21,888 nucleotides of DNA. Origin: Saccoglossus kowalevskii (taxonomy: Eukaryota > Hemichordata > Enteropneusta > Harrimaniidae). The translations under genes and the position numbers were made by a program. The stretch spans positions 1,666,148-1,688,035 of the forward strand of contig NW_003107089.1 in assembly GCF_000003605.2 (NCBI RefSeq), given 5' to 3'. Of the stretch, positions 715-21,780 are shown piece after piece (position 1 is the stretch's first letter; every line of letters begins with the position of its first letter). The notes beneath the pieces were generated by a model. That model was not told the DNA's origin. It searched no databases and was given only the letters and a program-made list of their open reading frames with translations.

Positions 715-1380
715 CCCTGTCACGGCACTTTGATTGTGATAGTGTCTGGGGATGGTGATTTGTTCACTGTCCTGGACTACTCAAATGATGTACATGACTC
801 CCTAATGACGAAATGAAATCAATGTGATATATAAGCACCTTTGTATATTCACAGCGACTGTCAATCATTTAGTGTACATTTATGGTCTCGAATGGGGGTG
901 ATTTCATTATTTGCTTTTTATCTTCATGAAACCCATTCCTTCAACAAAAAAAATGGGTAAGCTAGTCGTCACTGAATACAGAATCACCGACCCGTCTAAG
1001 CTGAAGAAATTTACCATTCTCTAAAGATAAGCACCGTGTTGGCTGGTTCTCCACGCAATATTGGTGATGAAGAGTCTTTTGCTCCGTAAAAAATTGTATT
1101 TTGAATAATTAAGATATGCATGTTAAACATTCATTTCATTGAGTGTATGAGCAGCCGTACGCAGACATCGAACACATCTGCTTTTGATGTGTATATTTCG
1201 GTGGCTAAATGTCTTTTGGTGTTACCAGCCATGCGTAATACAATATTTAACTATCAATTCAAATGTGCTCTGTTATTGCAACTAGATTTCCCTGAATTTA
1301 CGGGTAGCATCTGTTATTAACGTTAATAAATAATGTTTAACCTGTCCTTTGGTGTCTCCTAAAAATACTCTCCTGAAATA
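715..1380. other. No confident gene
   Basis: An ATG frame at 1120-1320 encodes 66 residues without recognisable motifs. That length is expected by chance in this composition, and I do not call it a gene. Nothing else stands out. Confidence 0.3.
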
Positions 1381-1381
1381 G

Positions 1382-1521
1382 GACTTTGTTGGGAGGGGGC
1401 ACGTCGAGTCGAAGAATTCTTAGCAAGTGCCGAGACACCCAGGCAACAACCACGTGGGTACATCTAGCCAATAAGAGCACGCTTTGCGGTGACTGCAGCA
1501 CCACTTTGACCGTCGGAATTG
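1382..1521 (+). CDS. Candidate internal exon, unknown product
   Basis: I do not recognise the product. A pyrimidine-rich tract ending ...CTGAAATAG precedes 1382. From there one frame stays open (Thr-Leu-Leu-Gly-Gly-Gly...) to a donor-like GTAAAT at 1522. The stretch is more GC-rich than its surroundings. The donor interrupts a codon after its first base (phase 1), which matches the phase needed by the next candidate exon at 1680. The intervening 158 bp would be a small intron. The peptide contains three cysteines (CRD, CGDC) and no membrane segment. No start codon is present, so an upstream exon would be needed. Unspliced, the frame simply continues to a stop at 1601, so chance openness is a real alternative. 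Confidence 0.2.
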
Positions 1522-1679
1522 GTAAATACGTACGTTCTACGTCGCTTGGTCACATGATAGTCGAGGTGCAAGGAGATTGGACTAGAAGCCTGAATCCCTA
1601 ACACATACATAAATGTTGCTATACCATACTATAATATACTTAATTTCCACTTAGATTTTTTTTGCCTATTTTCGCTAAG

Positions 1680-1909
1680 TGAAAATCATAAAATCTGGTG
1701 AAAAAACAATTTTTTCCTACGTTTCACATTTAACTCATCAAAATTCAGAGAAAATAAATGTCAAACAAAACATCAAAAATGTCTTTACAACGAACATTAT
1801 TGCCAGCTTAGATAAAGTATTTTACAGTAGTGCCCACTTCAAATCGCCCTACTATTTCAAAGTACTGGTGACTACTCTGCGGAAACCGCCACGTAAAGAA
1901 AAACTGTAA
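1680..1909 (+). CDS. Candidate terminal exon, lysine-rich C-terminus, unknown product
   Basis: The acceptor is strong: a T-run and pyrimidine tract at about 1655-1676 ends in CTAAG at 1679. The exon would then read in phase 1 (TG completing a codon, then AAA ATC ATA AAA). About 76 codons follow to a TAA at 1907-1909. The peptide is basic and ends RKPPRKEKL, with no cysteine and no clear domain. It joins in frame with the candidate exon at 1382-1521. No canonical AATAAA follows closely; an ATTAAA lies near 1971. Composition is balanced, which favours coding, but I cannot assign a family and a chance frame is possible. Confidence 0.22.
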
Positions 1910-1984
1910 TAATTACATATTACAGTAAACAATTAGTCATCACTTGGACAATGTAATTGTCGAAAACAACATTAAAACATAAAA

Positions 1985-2032
1985 CACGTGACGTGGTTAA
2001 GAATTACGTCATTTACGTCAGCTAAAATATAG
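1985..2032 (+). promoter_or_regulatory. Promoter-like cluster: E-box, tandem CRE-like sites, TATA-like stretch
   Basis: CACGTG (1985-1990) overlaps a TGACGTG. Two copies of TTACGTCA follow at 2004-2011 and 2013-2020, nine bases apart. The AT-rich TAAAATATAG at 2023-2032 sits 26-35 bases before the ATG at 2058. Known binders of such motifs are bHLH factors (CACGTG) and CREB/ATF bZIP factors (ACGTCA). The order and spacing look like a compact core promoter. That it is active is inference. Confidence 0.35.
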
Positions 2033-2057
2033 TGTTTTACAGTAATAGAAATTCAAG

Positions 2058-2183
2058 ATGGCCACCAAATATTACATGAAATTGTATAACGGACCACAAT
2101 TTCTGTGCGTTATAGTGGAACGCATTAAAATGCGTCTTTCCTTTAAAATAATCGCGCCCTCTAGTAGCAATGCGCTTCTATGA
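2058..2183 (+). CDS. Small ORF, 41 residues, in good initiation context
   Basis: The ATG lies in AAGATGG (A at -3, G at +4), a favourable animal start context; CAAGATGGC also resembles a YY1-type initiator element. An in-frame TAG lies four codons upstream, so the start is well bounded. The product begins MATKYYMKLYNGPQF, is followed by a mildly hydrophobic stretch (LCVIV) and a basic segment (ERIKMRLSFK), and ends SNALL. I recognise no family. The CRE/E-box/TATA-like cluster directly upstream is the main reason to take it seriously. It could be a micropeptide, an upstream ORF, the first exon of a longer gene (no good donor seen inside), or chance. Confidence 0.28.
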   Translation: MATKYYMKLYNGPQFLCVIVERIKMRLSFKIIAPSSSNALL

Positions 2184-2400
2184 CGCAAAACTTCGTGACA
2201 CGAAAACTGTTTTAGCATCGGATAACATTTCGATCTGTAGGCGTCCGCCAATGACACGTGACGAGTATGCGCTTACAAATTTATTATATGTGATAAACCA
2301 CTGCAACAGCAAATGCATTCCCTCTCGATCTATGCGTTCTGCAAGTCGGGATCTTTTATAATTTTATTATGGCTCAGCCAGTGCTGTACATGCTACGACC

Positions 2401-2502
2401 ATGGCCGCGTCTAGTGCGATGAATGCATTTAAGGAATTGATTCGTTGGGTAGTTTTGACATTTTTATCTTTCATTTTCATGAGATTCGATCTTGATTTTT
2501 AA
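2401..2502 (+). CDS. Small ORF, 33 residues, near-ideal Kozak, single hydrophobic helix
   Basis: ACCATGGCC is a textbook Kozak context. The frame reads MAASSAMNAFKELIRW, then a hydrophobic run (VVLTFLSFIF) and a short tail ending DLDF before TAA. This is the layout of a tail-anchored or single-pass micropeptide. It could instead be the first exon of a longer protein, with a weak donor GTAGTT right after the Trp codon at 2448. A second overlapping ATG at 2370 opens only 17 codons in another frame. The T-rich codons of the hydrophobic part may just reflect AT-rich DNA. No family is recognised. Confidence 0.25.
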   Translation: MAASSAMNAFKELIRWVVLTFLSFIFMRFDLDF

Positions 2503-3720
2503 TAACTTTGTTTATATTTGTTTTCTTTTTTGCAATTTATATCTCGATATTGTCTTGTCTGTTTTGTCCCATCTCAACGAAAGAGGTTTTACGTATTTAC
2601 CAATGCAGTTATCGTAATTAAAATTAAAAGACTAGATCATTAAACATGTATATTGAATAATCCTTGTTATTACTTCGTTTTATTCTTGTGGATTTCATCA
2701 TTCTACTTTTTATTTTTAACAGCATTCACAGACTTGATGTCCTCGTACTTGCTGCAATGTAACATCTGCCATTACTCGTAATATTGGTAAAACTACGGGA
2801 ACGGACAAACGCGCCTGCTTATGCATTAAATAGAATTGAAAACTTGTAATTTTCAGGCTTGTTGTGGGCACTCATTGTACCTCACACTAGTCTGAGATTG
2901 TACACGCTATGTTTGTCCTCTATCTCTGGTTTCCGTTGTAGTTTGTGACTTAAGAGTATAAACTGTAGCTACGGTAACGTTCGGAGCTCGGAAGTTTCGT
3001 TCGGCGTGTTTTGATATGTATTGTTAGCAATGCATATGATTTTTGTTCAGTACGGGTTTGTACAACTTAACTGTTTTATGACCATATAAATAAATTAAAT
3101 AACAGCTGTATTTTGTTTTACAATCAGAGCAAATATCCCCTTACATACGCGAAGCAACTGTCGCGTATCGACATGAGGCGCCATCGTGACGCAGTTGCAG
3201 ATAAGACATATATTACGAACTGAACTAATTTGAAGACTGCTAATATTTTAGGGCATCATTTTGTTGGAAAAAAATTGAACGATTCCTGAAATCAGATTGC
3301 ATTAATACACTCGGCAATTACTATCACAAGTTAGTATGTCACGTTCGCATTGTAGAGGCGCCAACATATACTAACAGCTTATTAAGACTCCCAGCGATGA
3401 TATTTGAGATGATGATCGCCCCCACACAGATGAACGATTCTTCGTGCATTGATTCAAATTAAGACGTTATGTAAATATAACGTATCGACGAAATCGATGA
3501 CAGAGGCCATCAGATTAGGTGATTGGGATATAACGTATATCATTAGATGCTTTTAGCTGCCATGGTGTTAATTGACGGGGTCATGTTTATGTTACGTGTA
3601 TTATTTTGATATTTCGGTTTTTTTGTTGTAATCGTGTATACGAATGTATTGTTGGTTACGTTGACTTTATTGCCGTTTTTTGTTCCATCATTTATTACTT
3701 TGGGGCTTTTTTTCTGCTGA
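2503..3720. other. No confident gene
   Basis: AT-rich DNA with T-runs. GGCGCC hexamers occur near 3179 and 3357, and small palindromes around ATAACGT near 3464-3484. No exon with convincing splice sites was seen. Confidence 0.3.
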
Positions 3721-3731
3721 CCCCCCCCCCC
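3721..3731. repeat. Poly-C run (11 C)
   Basis: An uninterrupted run of eleven C. Runs like this are slippage-prone and often mis-sequenced, and the run sits inside a T-rich open frame (3606-3854) that I do not call coding. Confidence 0.9.
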
Positions 3732-5540
3732 TATGTCAAGGTTGAACAAACAACGAATATTTTACTGTGTTTCATAATCTTCTTATTTGTCCTTCTCCGA
3801 TCAGAATGGTATGTAAAACGTTCGCAACGTTCGGATCATATTTCAGAAATATAAAACCAGACAAGGCAGTTAAGCAATAGTGCAACCGAAATGGGACATC
3901 TGGTTGTGATTGCTCAATTAGTTGATTTGGTGTACATTTCGCAATAAGGTAAATTTAACTACGGCTTTGATTACGTCATATGCACTGGGTCCCACGGATG
4001 GTGTAAGATAAGTAACGTTGTCCGATACGCACATTTAATCGATTTTACGTTTTTTTTTATGTTAACCCGTTATTTAAAGGAATGTCTACGCCACAGCGAA
4101 TAATTGTTCTGATCTTACAATTACACGGTAGTCATTAAAACATCCGCATTGGGTACTATTACATGACAAAATATGTCTACTACACCGGCTACGTTTAGAA
4201 ATAGTAGTTCATTAGAGATTGATGAGTGCTCGTAGAATTCCTTCAAATTTTTAAATTGGCATACTGCACAAGACCACTGAATCCCCGATGATATGGCATT
4301 AGTTTAGGCATCTATCATTTTAACTTTATAAAGTTGAGTGCCTGTTACATGGTAATCAATGCATAATGTGGTCAATATCAATTTTAGGCAAAATCAAAAC
4401 AGGCGAAAGACGAAGTAGCAACCCTAAAACTTGCAGCGATCGATTTTTGTTATTAGCAAGATCAATCGTTAAAACCGACATTGAAAACCGTTTGGATGGT
4501 ATTGGAGTAAATACGTCACCATAAATCAAATAACTTATTGTGACGTGAATTCTACATTTCAGAAAAACAATAGTACAATTTAGGTAGGTCATTGAAATCA
4601 CAGGGTATATATATATCTGATGATTTGAGTATCAAGAAAAGTGTACTTTAAGAACTGACTATATTAGATAGACGATGTGTATCGTAATTGAAAAATTAAA
4701 TAATATATGAAATCGTCTTATCAATGAAGTTATTTTTCAGATATTTATATGGATCGTATTTGACATCACCGAGATTAAAATAGCTTAAAAAACTCTCATG
4801 AGAATGAATAACGCGCGCAAAATAGTTACTTACATATAGTTAACAATCAATATATAGTTATAAATTTCATCAAACCTAAAATGTCGACCAAGAGCGCGTA
4901 TCAGGAACGCTTGTTGAGCATGCGTTCAACTGCATAGCGCCAAGGCGTCACGCAACGTGGCGTTATTTGCGTAAAAGAACTTGTAATCAACATTTGCGAC
5001 GACACTGAAACTAGCGAGGAGATAACTGATTCCCCGGCAGACAATTGTTATTTGTTTCCATTGCTTGACGTACGTCACTCAATGACACTTTTGTCAATCT
5101 ATTAAGCATAGTGGTTTAACATTGTAGACTGGACGACATTTGGTGTGAACATAACTGCCGTTACTATGATTTATATGTTTAAATACTCATATACATATTG
5201 ATATTACAAATATAAAATAATGTTCATTACGTCATAAGTAAATACACGTATTTAGCGACATATTTTTAAGTACCTCCTCATTTCTCGGTAAGTGTTTACC
5301 GATATGTACCAGCCTGTACGTATATATGGCGGCCGTAATCTCATTCGCGCACCAGTCGCTGAGCCCTATTTTTATTCACAACATAGTCGATGATGCTGTG
5401 ATTGTGTGACAGCGCCCGATCCCTTAAGACGAACCTATTAGACTATAATTAGGCGCCGGCAAAGGTTATTTGACAGGTTATATGCGTTTAATTGTTTCCA
5501 CAATATGTGAATATTTTGATTCATTCCGTTATTCGTCTGT
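3732..5540. other. No confident gene
   Basis: Mostly AT-rich with scattered ACGTCA motifs (about 3974, 4513, 5071, 5229). A small dyad TCGGTAA/TTACCGA lies at about 5286-5302. ATGGCGGCC at 5326 opens a 27-codon frame in weak upstream context. I call nothing here. Confidence 0.3.
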
Positions 5541-5614
5541 TCTATTCTATTCTATTCTATTCTATTCTATTCTATTCTATTCTATTCTATTCTATTCTAT
5601 TCTATTCTATTCTA
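5541..5614. repeat. Perfect pentanucleotide microsatellite (TCTAT)n
   Basis: Almost fifteen uninterrupted copies of TCTAT, with no substitution. Perfection implies recent expansion and likely length polymorphism. The hydrophobic frame reading through it (FYSIL repeats) is an artefact of the repeat. Confidence 0.97.
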
Positions 5615-10740: not shown

Positions 10741-11542
10741 CCATAAAGGATCGTATTTAATGATTATAAAATATATTAAAATTGACTAAAAAACGCGCTT
10801 TCCCCGCTTTTAATTTTCATTTGTAAAAACATATAATTATTAATAAGCTATAATGAAGAGTAATTAAATTTTATTCGATTGAGTAATAATGCTTAATTTT
10901 GTTAATGTATTGGTATCATTGCGCATCGTTCATCAGTCTTTGTGTACAAATCTGCAGCGCTTACGTAAAATTACGGCTTAATTTGACCAGTGAAACAAAT
11001 CACGAAATGATCATCGTTTCGTGACACACACCCGATTCCAGAATTGCGATTATAAACTGTAATTCTGCTATTCCGAATTCAAAATAGAGGTAAACATTGT
11101 GGCTGAAAATCGAATCTATACTGATTTGTTTTATTAATTAATAACTATTTAAGTAATCAAATTAAAATTTAAATTAAAATCTTGATAATTTTGGAAATAA
11201 CTGACCACGCATGAATAATTAATGGGATATATATATGGCACTTAAGTCAAGCCAGTTTAATTTAGTCGTCTTTGAATGGCATGGTTACATACATTAAATT
11301 AAAATGGTCGTGGTCTGCTTTTGTAATCAGTGACGTAATAGATTTGGACCTCGTTTCAATAGTACTTTGACAATGAAATGTTTCAACAGTTTCACTATGG
11401 TTTACAGTGGCATTTCAACCAAGTGAACTTCAAATTGAACTAAAGATTAATCCAGTTTCATCACAGTAATGGATACCCGCACCCGTCATTGCTTAAGTCG
11501 AGTTGATTAAATGTAATTAAACGGTTGAATAACGAGTAGTTC
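10741..11542. other. No confident gene; very AT-rich
   Basis: Long A/T tracts (around 10740-10920 and 11120-11230) and a short ATATATAT run near 11230. No exon seen. Confidence 0.35.
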
Positions 11543-11588
11543 TTTAAACCTCAGACAAATAATACATTATTAGTTGTCTGAGTTTAAA
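11543..11588. other. Near-perfect 46-nt palindromic hairpin
   Basis: TTTAAACCTCAGACAA pairs with TTGTCTGAGTTTAAA with a single bulged C. The pairing continues inward (ATAATA/TATTAG, one mismatch) to a loop of about three bases. It is shorter than a typical miRNA precursor. A cruciform-forming or binding palindrome, or a very small MITE remnant, is possible. Confidence 0.6.
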
Positions 11589-12003
11589 CAAATGCTGTAT
11601 TTAAGACGTGGCCACTTGTAACGTGAACTTGAATTAGTCAAACAATCATTCATCATCTCTTTAATAATTCACGAATATGTTTTTAAGATGCATTAAAAAA
11701 AGAGTAATCCTGTTAGAAAGAACTGTTTCGGCTTATCATTAAGTCCGAGTGTGTTTGAATATTCTGCCATGATTCTACTAAGACTTGTTTAGTTACACAG
11801 GCGTAAGGTGGAAATTGACAAGTCCATGAATACAATACAAACCATTGAAAATAAATAGCTATAAGTAATCCACAAAAACAAAGCAGAGCAACTGACAACT
11901 AAATATACTACACTACTTAGTCAATTCAGTAAGAGAATTTGACTTTATGGTACATTAAGTGAGCACAACTTCCTCCTACAGTTCCGAGAGATTTGAGATG
12001 TAC

Positions 12004-16999: not shown

Positions 17000-17375
17000 A
17001 TGAAGGTACCTTCATGGGTGGAACACTGTCGAATGTGACGATACCTTTAATGTTTTGTCAATATTCTTGTAATTTTTGTAAATAAATGGCTTATTATTGA
17101 AAACGGCTAATCAGATTGCCTTGATATTTTGTATGTAGGCACCTCGGGTAAAACACGGTCAGTTTTATTCATTGTGCTGTGATACTTCCAGTTGTCTAAT
17201 ATTAGTGAATAGTTTGGTCTTATTTCTGACGTCTTTTTGATAACCACTCGCTCAATTGTTTTAAAATTTTAACTACCTTGATTGGTTCACTGTCAGACTG
17301 ATTCATTCTTACGTCAGATTATTTCTATGAATTTGATACAGCGGAGCTATATGAGCTGACAGCTGCTTGTTCTTA
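17000..17375 (+). repeat. Diverged copy of the 157-bp repeat family, with shared right terminus
   Basis: Stretches such as TTGTAATTTTTG, GATTGCCTTGATATTTTG and TAGGCACCT align in order with the monomers at 20215-20942. The block ends with ACAGCGGAGCTATATGAGC (from 17338), matching the right end of the main array (ACAGCGGAGCTATCTCAGA, from 21047), and similarity continues through GCTTGTT. A 16-bp perfect palindrome, ATGAAGGTACCTTCAT (17000-17015), opens it. The left hairpin module is absent. This is an older dispersed copy, not part of the array. Confidence 0.6.
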
Positions 17376-20143: not shown

Positions 20144-20144
20144 T

Positions 20145-20175
20145 AGCTCCGCTGTCGACTTTGTCGAGCGGAGCT
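20145..20175. repeat. Left boundary hairpin of the repeat array
   Basis: AGCTCCGCT pairs with AGCGGAGCT, and inside it CGAC-TTT-GTCG pairs again, leaving only a two-base GT bulge. It opens the first higher-order unit. Confidence 0.8.
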
Positions 20176-20530
20176 TATCATATGAGTGATTGTCGTCCGT
20201 GTCAACTTTTTACTTTTTCTACTTCTCCTGAAAACTACAAGTCTGAATGCTTTGATTCTTGGCGTATATGTACCTTGGGTAGACCTCTCTTGGTTTTGTT
20301 CATTTCATGATGATATCTTCAATTCTCTAATTTCGGTGAATATTTTTGTAATTTCTGGTAAAAAGTGATATGTTCGATTTCTTGTTAAAAACCACAAGCC
20401 CAATTGCTTTGATATCATACATATAGGTACTACATGTGGACCTCTCTCTGATTTGTTCATTTCATGATGATATCTTCAATTCTCTAATTTTGGTGAATAT
20501 TTTTGTAATTTTTGGTAAAAAGTGATATTT

Positions 20531-20565
20531 AGTTCCGCTGTCGACAAAGTCGAGACAGTGAAGCT
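20531..20565. repeat. Second unit hairpin of the array
   Basis: CTGTC-GAC-AAA-GTC-GA-GACAG forms the core stem, with weaker outer pairing of AGTTCC and GTGAAGCT. The loop core CGAC-AAA-GTCG is the reverse complement of the first hairpin's CGAC-TTT-GTCG. Confidence 0.7.
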
Positions 20566-21035
20566 GTTCATATTACTGATTGTCCGTCGACGTCCAGAGT
20601 CCGTCGTCCGTCGTCGTCAACTTTACAATTTCAACTTCTTCTTCAAAACCGCAAGTTAGAATGTTTTCAAATTTGATATGCAAGTACCTTGGATAGTTCT
20701 TTCTCAGATTTGTTCATTTCATGCCAAATTCTCAAATTCTCTATTTTTGGTGAATATTTTTCTCAATTTTGGTAAAAAGTGATATTTTCGACTTCTCGTT
20801 AAAAAGCTCAAGTCTGATTGCTTTGATATTGCATATATAGGTACTACATGAGGACCTTTTTCAGATTTGTTCATTTCGTGGTGATATCTTCAATTATCTA
20901 ATTTTGATGAATATTTTTGTCGTTTTTGGTGAAAAGTGATATTTTCGAATTCTTGTTGAAAACAGCAAGGTCGATTGCTTGATACTATACATATTGTTCA
21001 TTATCTAATGATATCTTCAGTTCTTTAATTGAAAT

Positions 21036-21096
21036 GTGCATTGCTAACAGCGGAGCTATCTCAGATGACAGGTGCTTGTTTATAGCAATGCACCTG
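21036..21096. repeat. Right terminus of the array with two competing hairpins
   Basis: GTGCATTGCTA (21036-21046) pairs perfectly with TAGCAATGCAC (21083-21093). Alternatively CAGGTGC (21069-21075) pairs with GCACCTG (21090-21096). The two stems are mutually exclusive. Confidence 0.65.
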
Positions 21097-21780
21097 TGAT
21101 ATTAGCATACGAATAGATCAAGTTTACAAAATTGACACATTGACCACAAAAATAATGTTGGCTCAGTCTTGTATGGAATACACAGCTTTGTGACCTTTAA
21201 CTTTCGGTTCACACAAAGTAAAAAAAATGAAATATTACGAATACCCTCTTTTTATGCATTCAGTAAAGCGTTAGGAAAGATTGTGTTGATACGTCTTTCT
21301 AATAAGTCAGTCCCTCTAGCATCGAATTCGTTCTGTGACGTCAACGGGTGTGAGAAATATCGTTCGAAATGACAACTGTGTTTGGATGTGTAACACTTCG
21401 TTACCTAGAATATAGGAAATCGCTAAACAAAATATTTGTTATAGACGAAAGACCACAGAACAGAACAATACCGACTTTATGTATGGCGTCTCGCGCGTCA
21501 CATATGCACACGTCACTGGAGGGCGCGACTTATTGGAACGATGTAATTGAATTTACCCTTCGCTTTGACTTTCTATTTGATTGACGCATTCACTAATAGA
21601 AACACTAGCACTTAATTGGAGACTATCAGATTGTGATCTAGACTAGACCTAAGTACATTTGGACAATCTTGCTTCGAACATTTGCTTATCAGGTTCAATC
21701 AATAAGCAATGGCATTTTAATTCACCTCCCGTCGCATCTGTGCACACAGTGACATAAAGTGTTGCCGCCTCGCTTGTATA
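21097..21780. other. Two overlapping + strand open frames, uncertain
   Basis: A frame open from 21136 ends at TGA 21370-21372 and overlaps the ATG of a 71-codon frame (21369-21584) by four bases. Neither has a recognised domain. See findings. Confidence 0.2.
21336..21343. promoter_or_regulatory. Palindromic CRE (TGACGTCA)
   Basis: Third full CREB/ATF palindrome of the window. It falls inside an open frame of uncertain reality. Confidence 0.35.

Follow-up and report, generated by a model that had tools for sequence, protein, structure and literature searches.

A probable double-headed HINE with satellite-like repeats in Saccoglossus kowalevskii

Non-autonomous Helentrons (HINEs) that carry satellite repeats have been described before, in oysters and in flies. 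For Cg_HINE of Crassostrea gigas, the sections of PMC7492417 on which we draw report elements with two repeat arrays, explained by recombination or captured junctions, leave the autonomous partner of the oyster HINEs unresolved and, in the account given under Results and Discussion, mention no double heads. For Helraiser, the part of PMC4778049 used here describes a 3' hairpin that serves as a terminator and can be bypassed. Here we analyse a stretch of 21,888 nt from the hemichordate Saccoglossus kowalevskii (NCBI RefSeq assembly GCF_000003605.2, contig NW_003107089.1, forward-strand positions 1,666,148 to 1,688,035; henceforth the window). With a probability that we put at roughly three in four, its positions 20145-21080 are a double-headed non-coding HINE, in which an A-type head with two monomers is followed by a complete B-type element. 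The kind is familiar, and what interest there is lies in the double head; no description of double-headed HINEs that keep just the outer head was found in those parts of the Cg_HINE, DINE-1/mite HINE and Helraiser literature that we consulted, which is no proof of absence.

The self-comparison proposed in an earlier inspection of the same sequence (the initial annotation) matches two related units within 20144-21080 (E=2e-78). The four full 157-base monomers and the truncated one described there are present in a 157-nt register, with starts at 20216, 20373, 20630 and 20787 and pairwise identities of 71-86%, and so are the two hairpins, each followed by a GTC-rich linker. The parts are listed below, with subTIR standing for subterminal inverted repeat and M1 to M4 for the full monomers; the last line is a separate relative found by the same self-comparison.

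20145..20175, + strand: A-type 5' subTIR AGCTCCGCTGT with its complementary inverted repeat, the outer hairpin head with a TTT loop
20176..20215, + strand: A-type linker, containing a GTC-rich microsatellite-like stretch
20216..20372, + strand: central repeat M1, the variant found behind A-type heads
20373..20529, + strand: central repeat M2, also part of the outer element; its end is the T-run at which the inner element begins
20531..20565, + strand: inner B-type hairpin head with an AAA loop, decayed
20566..20629, + strand: B-type linker, containing a GTC-rich microsatellite-like stretch
20630..20786, + strand: central repeat M3, the variant found behind most B-type heads
20787..20943, + strand: central repeat M4
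20944..21030, + strand: truncated fifth monomer, in M2 numbering about 1-52 fused to 81-117, which precedes the tail in most copies
21036..21058, + strand: right flank, the conserved GTGCATTGCTA (21036-21046) followed by the 3' subTIR ACAGCGGAGCT(A)
21062..21080, + strand: terminal stem-loop, which is commonly CAGCCGACAGGCTG and has decayed in this copy, and the 3' end CTTGTT
17045..17371, + strand: older headless relative with the same 3' subTIR and ..GCTTGTT, about 62-69% similar

The 12-bp inverted repeats that had been taken to enclose the whole are indeed perfect, at 20144-20155 and 21047-21058, but they are subterminal, the 3' one lying about 23 nt inside the end. Judged by the 3' end common to copies, the element ends at about 21080 (..GCTTGTT) and 21081-21096 is host flank; the interval 20144..21096 first assigned to the repeat thus includes 16 bases of flank, the ends being AGCTCC and CTTGTT. 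A stem drawn by the fold program around 21068-21097 is probably not the element's own, because its right arm lies beyond this common 3' end. No open reading frame (ORF) of at least 80 aa in the window's ORF list overlaps 20144-21080. There is also an 11-nt inverted repeat between the conserved tail at 21036-21046 (GTGCATTGCTA) and the adjoining host flank at 21083-21093 (TAGCAATGCAC), which may be due to chance, to an earlier insertion or to a minor template switch.

The window copy belongs to a family with common ends, a variable number of monomers, high copy number and insertion into T-runs without target site duplication (TSD), and its own two parts are fused at a monomer T-run. Across the genome (572 Mb, 4830 contigs), the A-type head with up to three mismatches has 2073 matches (1014 + 1059) and the B-type head 72 (31 + 41), the reversed controls giving 0 and 0 for either head; the figure for the B-type may be an undercount, because many of these heads are decayed or have a shortened core. 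A DNA search with the element, in which 40 of 4305 candidates were scored and 65 matches listed, places the better matches mainly in two classes that split at query positions 382-387 (window 20525-20530), with identities of 91-93% in the first-half class and mostly 82-89% in the second-half class. Loci from these searches carry the labels L and C below.

From 100 listed places we examined 77 exact A-type heads, namely 73 of the first 74 (the window's own was omitted) and four more (C315, C363) that were picked further down the list for the closeness of two heads. When a monomer is counted on a match of more than 100 nt, 58 of the 77 lead from the head through 0-13 full monomers to the tail, which bears out the satellite organisation within transposon-like ends seen by the initial annotation and turns out favourably for its proposed check that copies should share ends and vary in monomer number. 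The common plan comprises a T-run, the hairpin head, a GTC-rich linker, a first monomer that is head-specific in most copies (M1 behind A heads, M3 behind B heads), then regular monomers and one shortened monomer in which about 1-52 is fused to 81-117, and after these GTGCATTGCTA, the 3' subTIR, a stem-loop that has the form CAGCCGACAGGCTG in most copies examined, and CTTGTT. Element lengths cluster near 530 nt and reach a maximum of 2273 nt (47 head/3'-end pairs). The paired monomers, earlier read as the unit of the repeat, are not one: other copies carry anything from none to 13 monomers behind one head, and the pairs in the window are two elements of two subfamilies. Monomers without heads do exist, for instance in the old copy at 17045-17371 and as a weak run at L126, and count against the initial annotation as worded. 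Locus L183 holds a cluster of three elements (731-5600), two of which, of 13 and 10 monomers, meet tail to head. At about 820-1000 of L165, some 400 nt before a double-headed copy, lies an exon that matches T-type calcium channels (E=1e-20), so that the family also occurs near or inside genes.

The statistics of insertion are drawn from the 47 head/3'-end pairs, in which four miscalled 3' ends (50-54 nt after the head) were kept; these leave the head counts unaffected. At least five T directly precede AGCTCC in 35 of the 47 heads, and in the five heads that lack the final T a TTTT stands one base further upstream (L143 and L144 have their flank in common). Direct repeats across the 47 insertions came to 1.79, compared with 1.56 in shuffled pairs (standard deviation 0.23), and hence there is no sign of a TSD. 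A natural empty-site case is provided by L220, where the inner element is preceded by GTAATT and followed by TTTGG, while the intact older repeat reads GTAATTTTTGG; this fixes the ends of the element as AGCTCC and CTTGTT.

The two hairpins of the window differ in their state of preservation. Folded as single-stranded DNA, hairpin 1 (20145-20175) beats 200 of 200 shuffles (z -3.69), whereas the decayed hairpin 2 (20531-20565) is unremarkable (z -1.10), 28 of 200 shuffles folding as well. The reverse-complementary cores that had drawn attention to them, CGAC-TTT-GTCG and CGAC-AAA-GTCG, are present as described. All six A-type heads from the DNA-search loci (L121, L137, L142, L145, L149 and L150) have TTT, and two older heads, L133 and L147, have altered cores; the A-type heads from the genome pattern match were chosen by a pattern that itself holds TTT. 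Among 18 B-type heads, AAA occurs in 12, the core is absent in five and TTT occurs in one (L171), and AAA is also found in 66 of 68 mismatched B-type heads, with a search pattern that held AAA and so was biased toward it. The flipped loop is mainly a mark of subfamily, TTT for A and AAA for B, with at least one exception. Selection on structure, to which the flip had been attributed, is not borne out by the stems either, and we reject it for resident copies: in the 68 mismatched B-type heads, one-sided changes of stem pairs outnumber two-sided ones by 117 to 5. All five two-sided changes restore Watson-Crick pairing, about four two-sided changes being expected by chance by our own estimate; 50 of the 117 one-sided changes leave a G-T pair, and 87 of them are C>T or G>A. 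This looks like the decay of resident copies and says nothing against selection on the hairpin in copies that move.

Assignment to the HINEs follows from the anatomy. SubTIRs lie near both ends, AGCTCCGCTGT with its inverted repeat at the head and ACAGCGGAGCT in the tail; a stem-loop stands close to the 3' end; insertion is T-rich, TSDs are absent and there is no coding capacity. The optional features, a microsatellite behind the head and tandem central repeats, are found as well. The genome contains eight matches to Helitron_like_N (PF14214), C2261:3150874-3151464 and C238:1801-2133 among them, and two of the eight lie within open frames of 977 and 1446 aa. Other classes were considered and set aside. 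A canonical Helitron has 5' TC and 3' CTRR ends between A and T, not AGCTCC..CTTGTT in T-runs; a terminal inverted repeat transposon or miniature inverted-repeat transposable element does not agree with a 3' inverted repeat about 23 nt inside the end and no TSD. A classical satellite does not fit the 0-13 monomers between head and tail in 58 of 77 cases, long arrays elsewhere not having been sought. Nothing in the window attains the gathering score of an Rfam family, which disposes of a structural RNA; a tRNA was likewise rejected for the repeat, and a coding repeat was rejected since no ORF of at least 80 aa lies there. A pattern scan of IMG/VR gave at least 120 stretches; among those listed, none is similar to the element beyond one match at E=0.45.

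What sets the window copy (L121) apart is its double head: an A head with M1 and M2 is cut at the T-run GTGATATTT and a complete B element follows, and the outer A tail is absent, no same-strand element sequence occurring within 1516 nt past the 3' end. Eight of 105 distinct heads abut element sequence of the same orientation upstream. The outer tail is missing in four of these (L121, L134, L165 and L214), three (L156, L189 and L220) keep the outer element on both sides, and one, L181, is unreadable for the outer tail (N); outside the eight stand a direct tail-to-head join at L183 and, at L134, a weak match to the tail, 29 nt long, that precedes the first head. Conversely, an outer tail without an outer head was seen in none of 89 distinct 3' ends. 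The counts of four head-only, three two-sided and no tail-only fusions come from a small and partly chosen sample, which includes the window itself and L181, picked for two heads listed close together, and they are suggestive of a head-only bias. Such a bias is what copying would produce if it ran from the outer head only as far as the first terminator. A junction pattern composed of GTGAATATTTTT, N{0,3} and AGCTCCGCTGTCG occurs exactly at two places in the genome, one of them L214, and by itself decides nothing between head-only and tail-only fusion.

By analogy with known relatives, a Rep/helicase made elsewhere would nick the 5' hairpin head, the strand would be copied rightwards through the monomers, and copying would be ended by the 3' stem-loop with CTTGTT. 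Less surely, a B element may first have inserted into a T-run within an A element; copying in a subsequent round may then have begun at A's head and ended at B's terminator, the first one encountered, so that A's tail was left behind and the two-headed composite would have moved as one unit. We favour this course of events over the alternatives below, at somewhat under even odds. Its extension to the family, in which nested satellite-carrying Helentrons would be re-mobilised as head-to-first-terminator composites and multi-headed elements would keep outer heads and never outer tails, we put forward more tentatively still.

A simpler history would have B insert into A at this locus and A's tail disappear later through ordinary DNA loss. 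Two-sided nestings (L156, L189, L220) and truncated copies such as L155, a head alone, speak for it, and yet we think it unlikely: in all four resolved head-only cases non-element flank lies close behind the inner 3' end, and the following 621-1516 nt hold no same-strand element sequence. A deletion would need to begin at that end every time. Less probable again is that A's head was joined to B with no prior nested insertion, by recombination or a template switch between copies of the two types, for instance via T-runs. The monomers are similar enough to recombine, and the double-headed L165 and L181 share one junction, the T-run with which the head linker ends; however, the junctions fall where a whole inner head begins, behind T-runs at differing positions of the repeat, as insertion predicts, and homologous exchange between monomers would put no head at the junction.

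Tail-to-head arrays, arising by rolling-circle read-through or by side-by-side insertion and losing the inner tail later, have a precedent in L183, where two full elements meet as ..CTTGTT directly followed by TAGCTCCGC... In the window, by contrast, the outer element ends within the repeat at a monomer T-run and no remnant of a tail precedes the inner head, so that we hold this origin to be quite improbable. The window taken by itself has the look of a single designed higher-order element whose paired monomers and structure are kept by selection, as the initial annotation saw it; the other copies, mostly with one head and 0-13 monomers, the derivation of the two heads from separate subfamilies and the mostly one-sided stem changes of B-type heads (117 vs 5) make this view almost certainly wrong.

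Insertion of B into A followed by copying from A's head to B's terminator, and the underlying assignment to the HINEs, must also be set against several observations that count against them. Four head-only fusions against zero tail-only ones make no significant difference, and the window accounts for one of the four. At L189 the outer element is short of about 10 nt at the insertion, so that clean nesting is not the rule without exception. The 3' stem-loop has decayed in the window copy, and 19 of the 77 A-type heads do not reach a tail (N nearby in 12, none in seven), among them truncated copies and copies that run past the examined stretch. Finally, the search, which did not extend to the flanks of the eight Helitron_like_N matches, turned up no autonomous partner that has these ends.

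This large HINE family with satellite-like repeats fits the idea that satellite-like DNA is spread by elements of this kind, and the double-headed copy raises the modest new question of where rolling-circle copying starts and stops. If our reading is true, head-only fusions would be a record, in DNA sequence alone, of the direction of rolling-circle transposition, and composites would offer a way for different repeat subfamilies to end up in one element. Should the head-only bias hold genome-wide, double-headed copies could serve as a fossil test of Helentron start and stop, and could be a source of two-array elements, whose origin is open, between recombination and other routes, in the sections of PMC7492417 used here.

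The window contains three further repeats. A 29-nt perfect inverted repeat at 352-380 and 686-714, its arms about 300 nt apart, is possibly another small inverted-repeat element; an imperfect palindrome at 11535-11596, about 60 nt long, is 79% self-complementary; and a (TCTAT)n microsatellite of 15.8 copies occupies 5536-5614.

Among described systems, Cg_HINE as portrayed in those sections of PMC7492417 shares with the window element an 11-12 bp 5' subTIR with a complementary inverted repeat, a 3' subTIR, a GTC-type microsatellite in several families, central repeats with consensus lengths of 138-181 bp, a 3' palindrome, T-rich insertion without TSD and a fixed repeat orientation. The 157-nt monomer and the double-headed copy set the window element apart, and its sequence is apparently another one, the likeness being one of anatomy between unaligned sequences. 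Pearl, DTC84 and MgE of bivalves, by their description in the same source and not by sequence, have a comparable architecture, and Pearl shares with the window element short arrays of central repeats of about 160 bp in a non-autonomous element. In the portion of PMC4067079 drawn upon, which concerns DINE-1 and the mite HINE, DINE-1 has the inverted repeat too; it differs in having a core sequence, and autonomous partners have been found. Canonical Helitrons, according to the part of PMC4778049 cited above, run from TC to CTRR and insert between A and T, whereas the window element runs from AGCTCC to CTTGTT in T-runs and has subterminal inverted repeats; what it has in common with them and with Helraiser is the rolling-circle logic, in which a 3' hairpin is the terminator.
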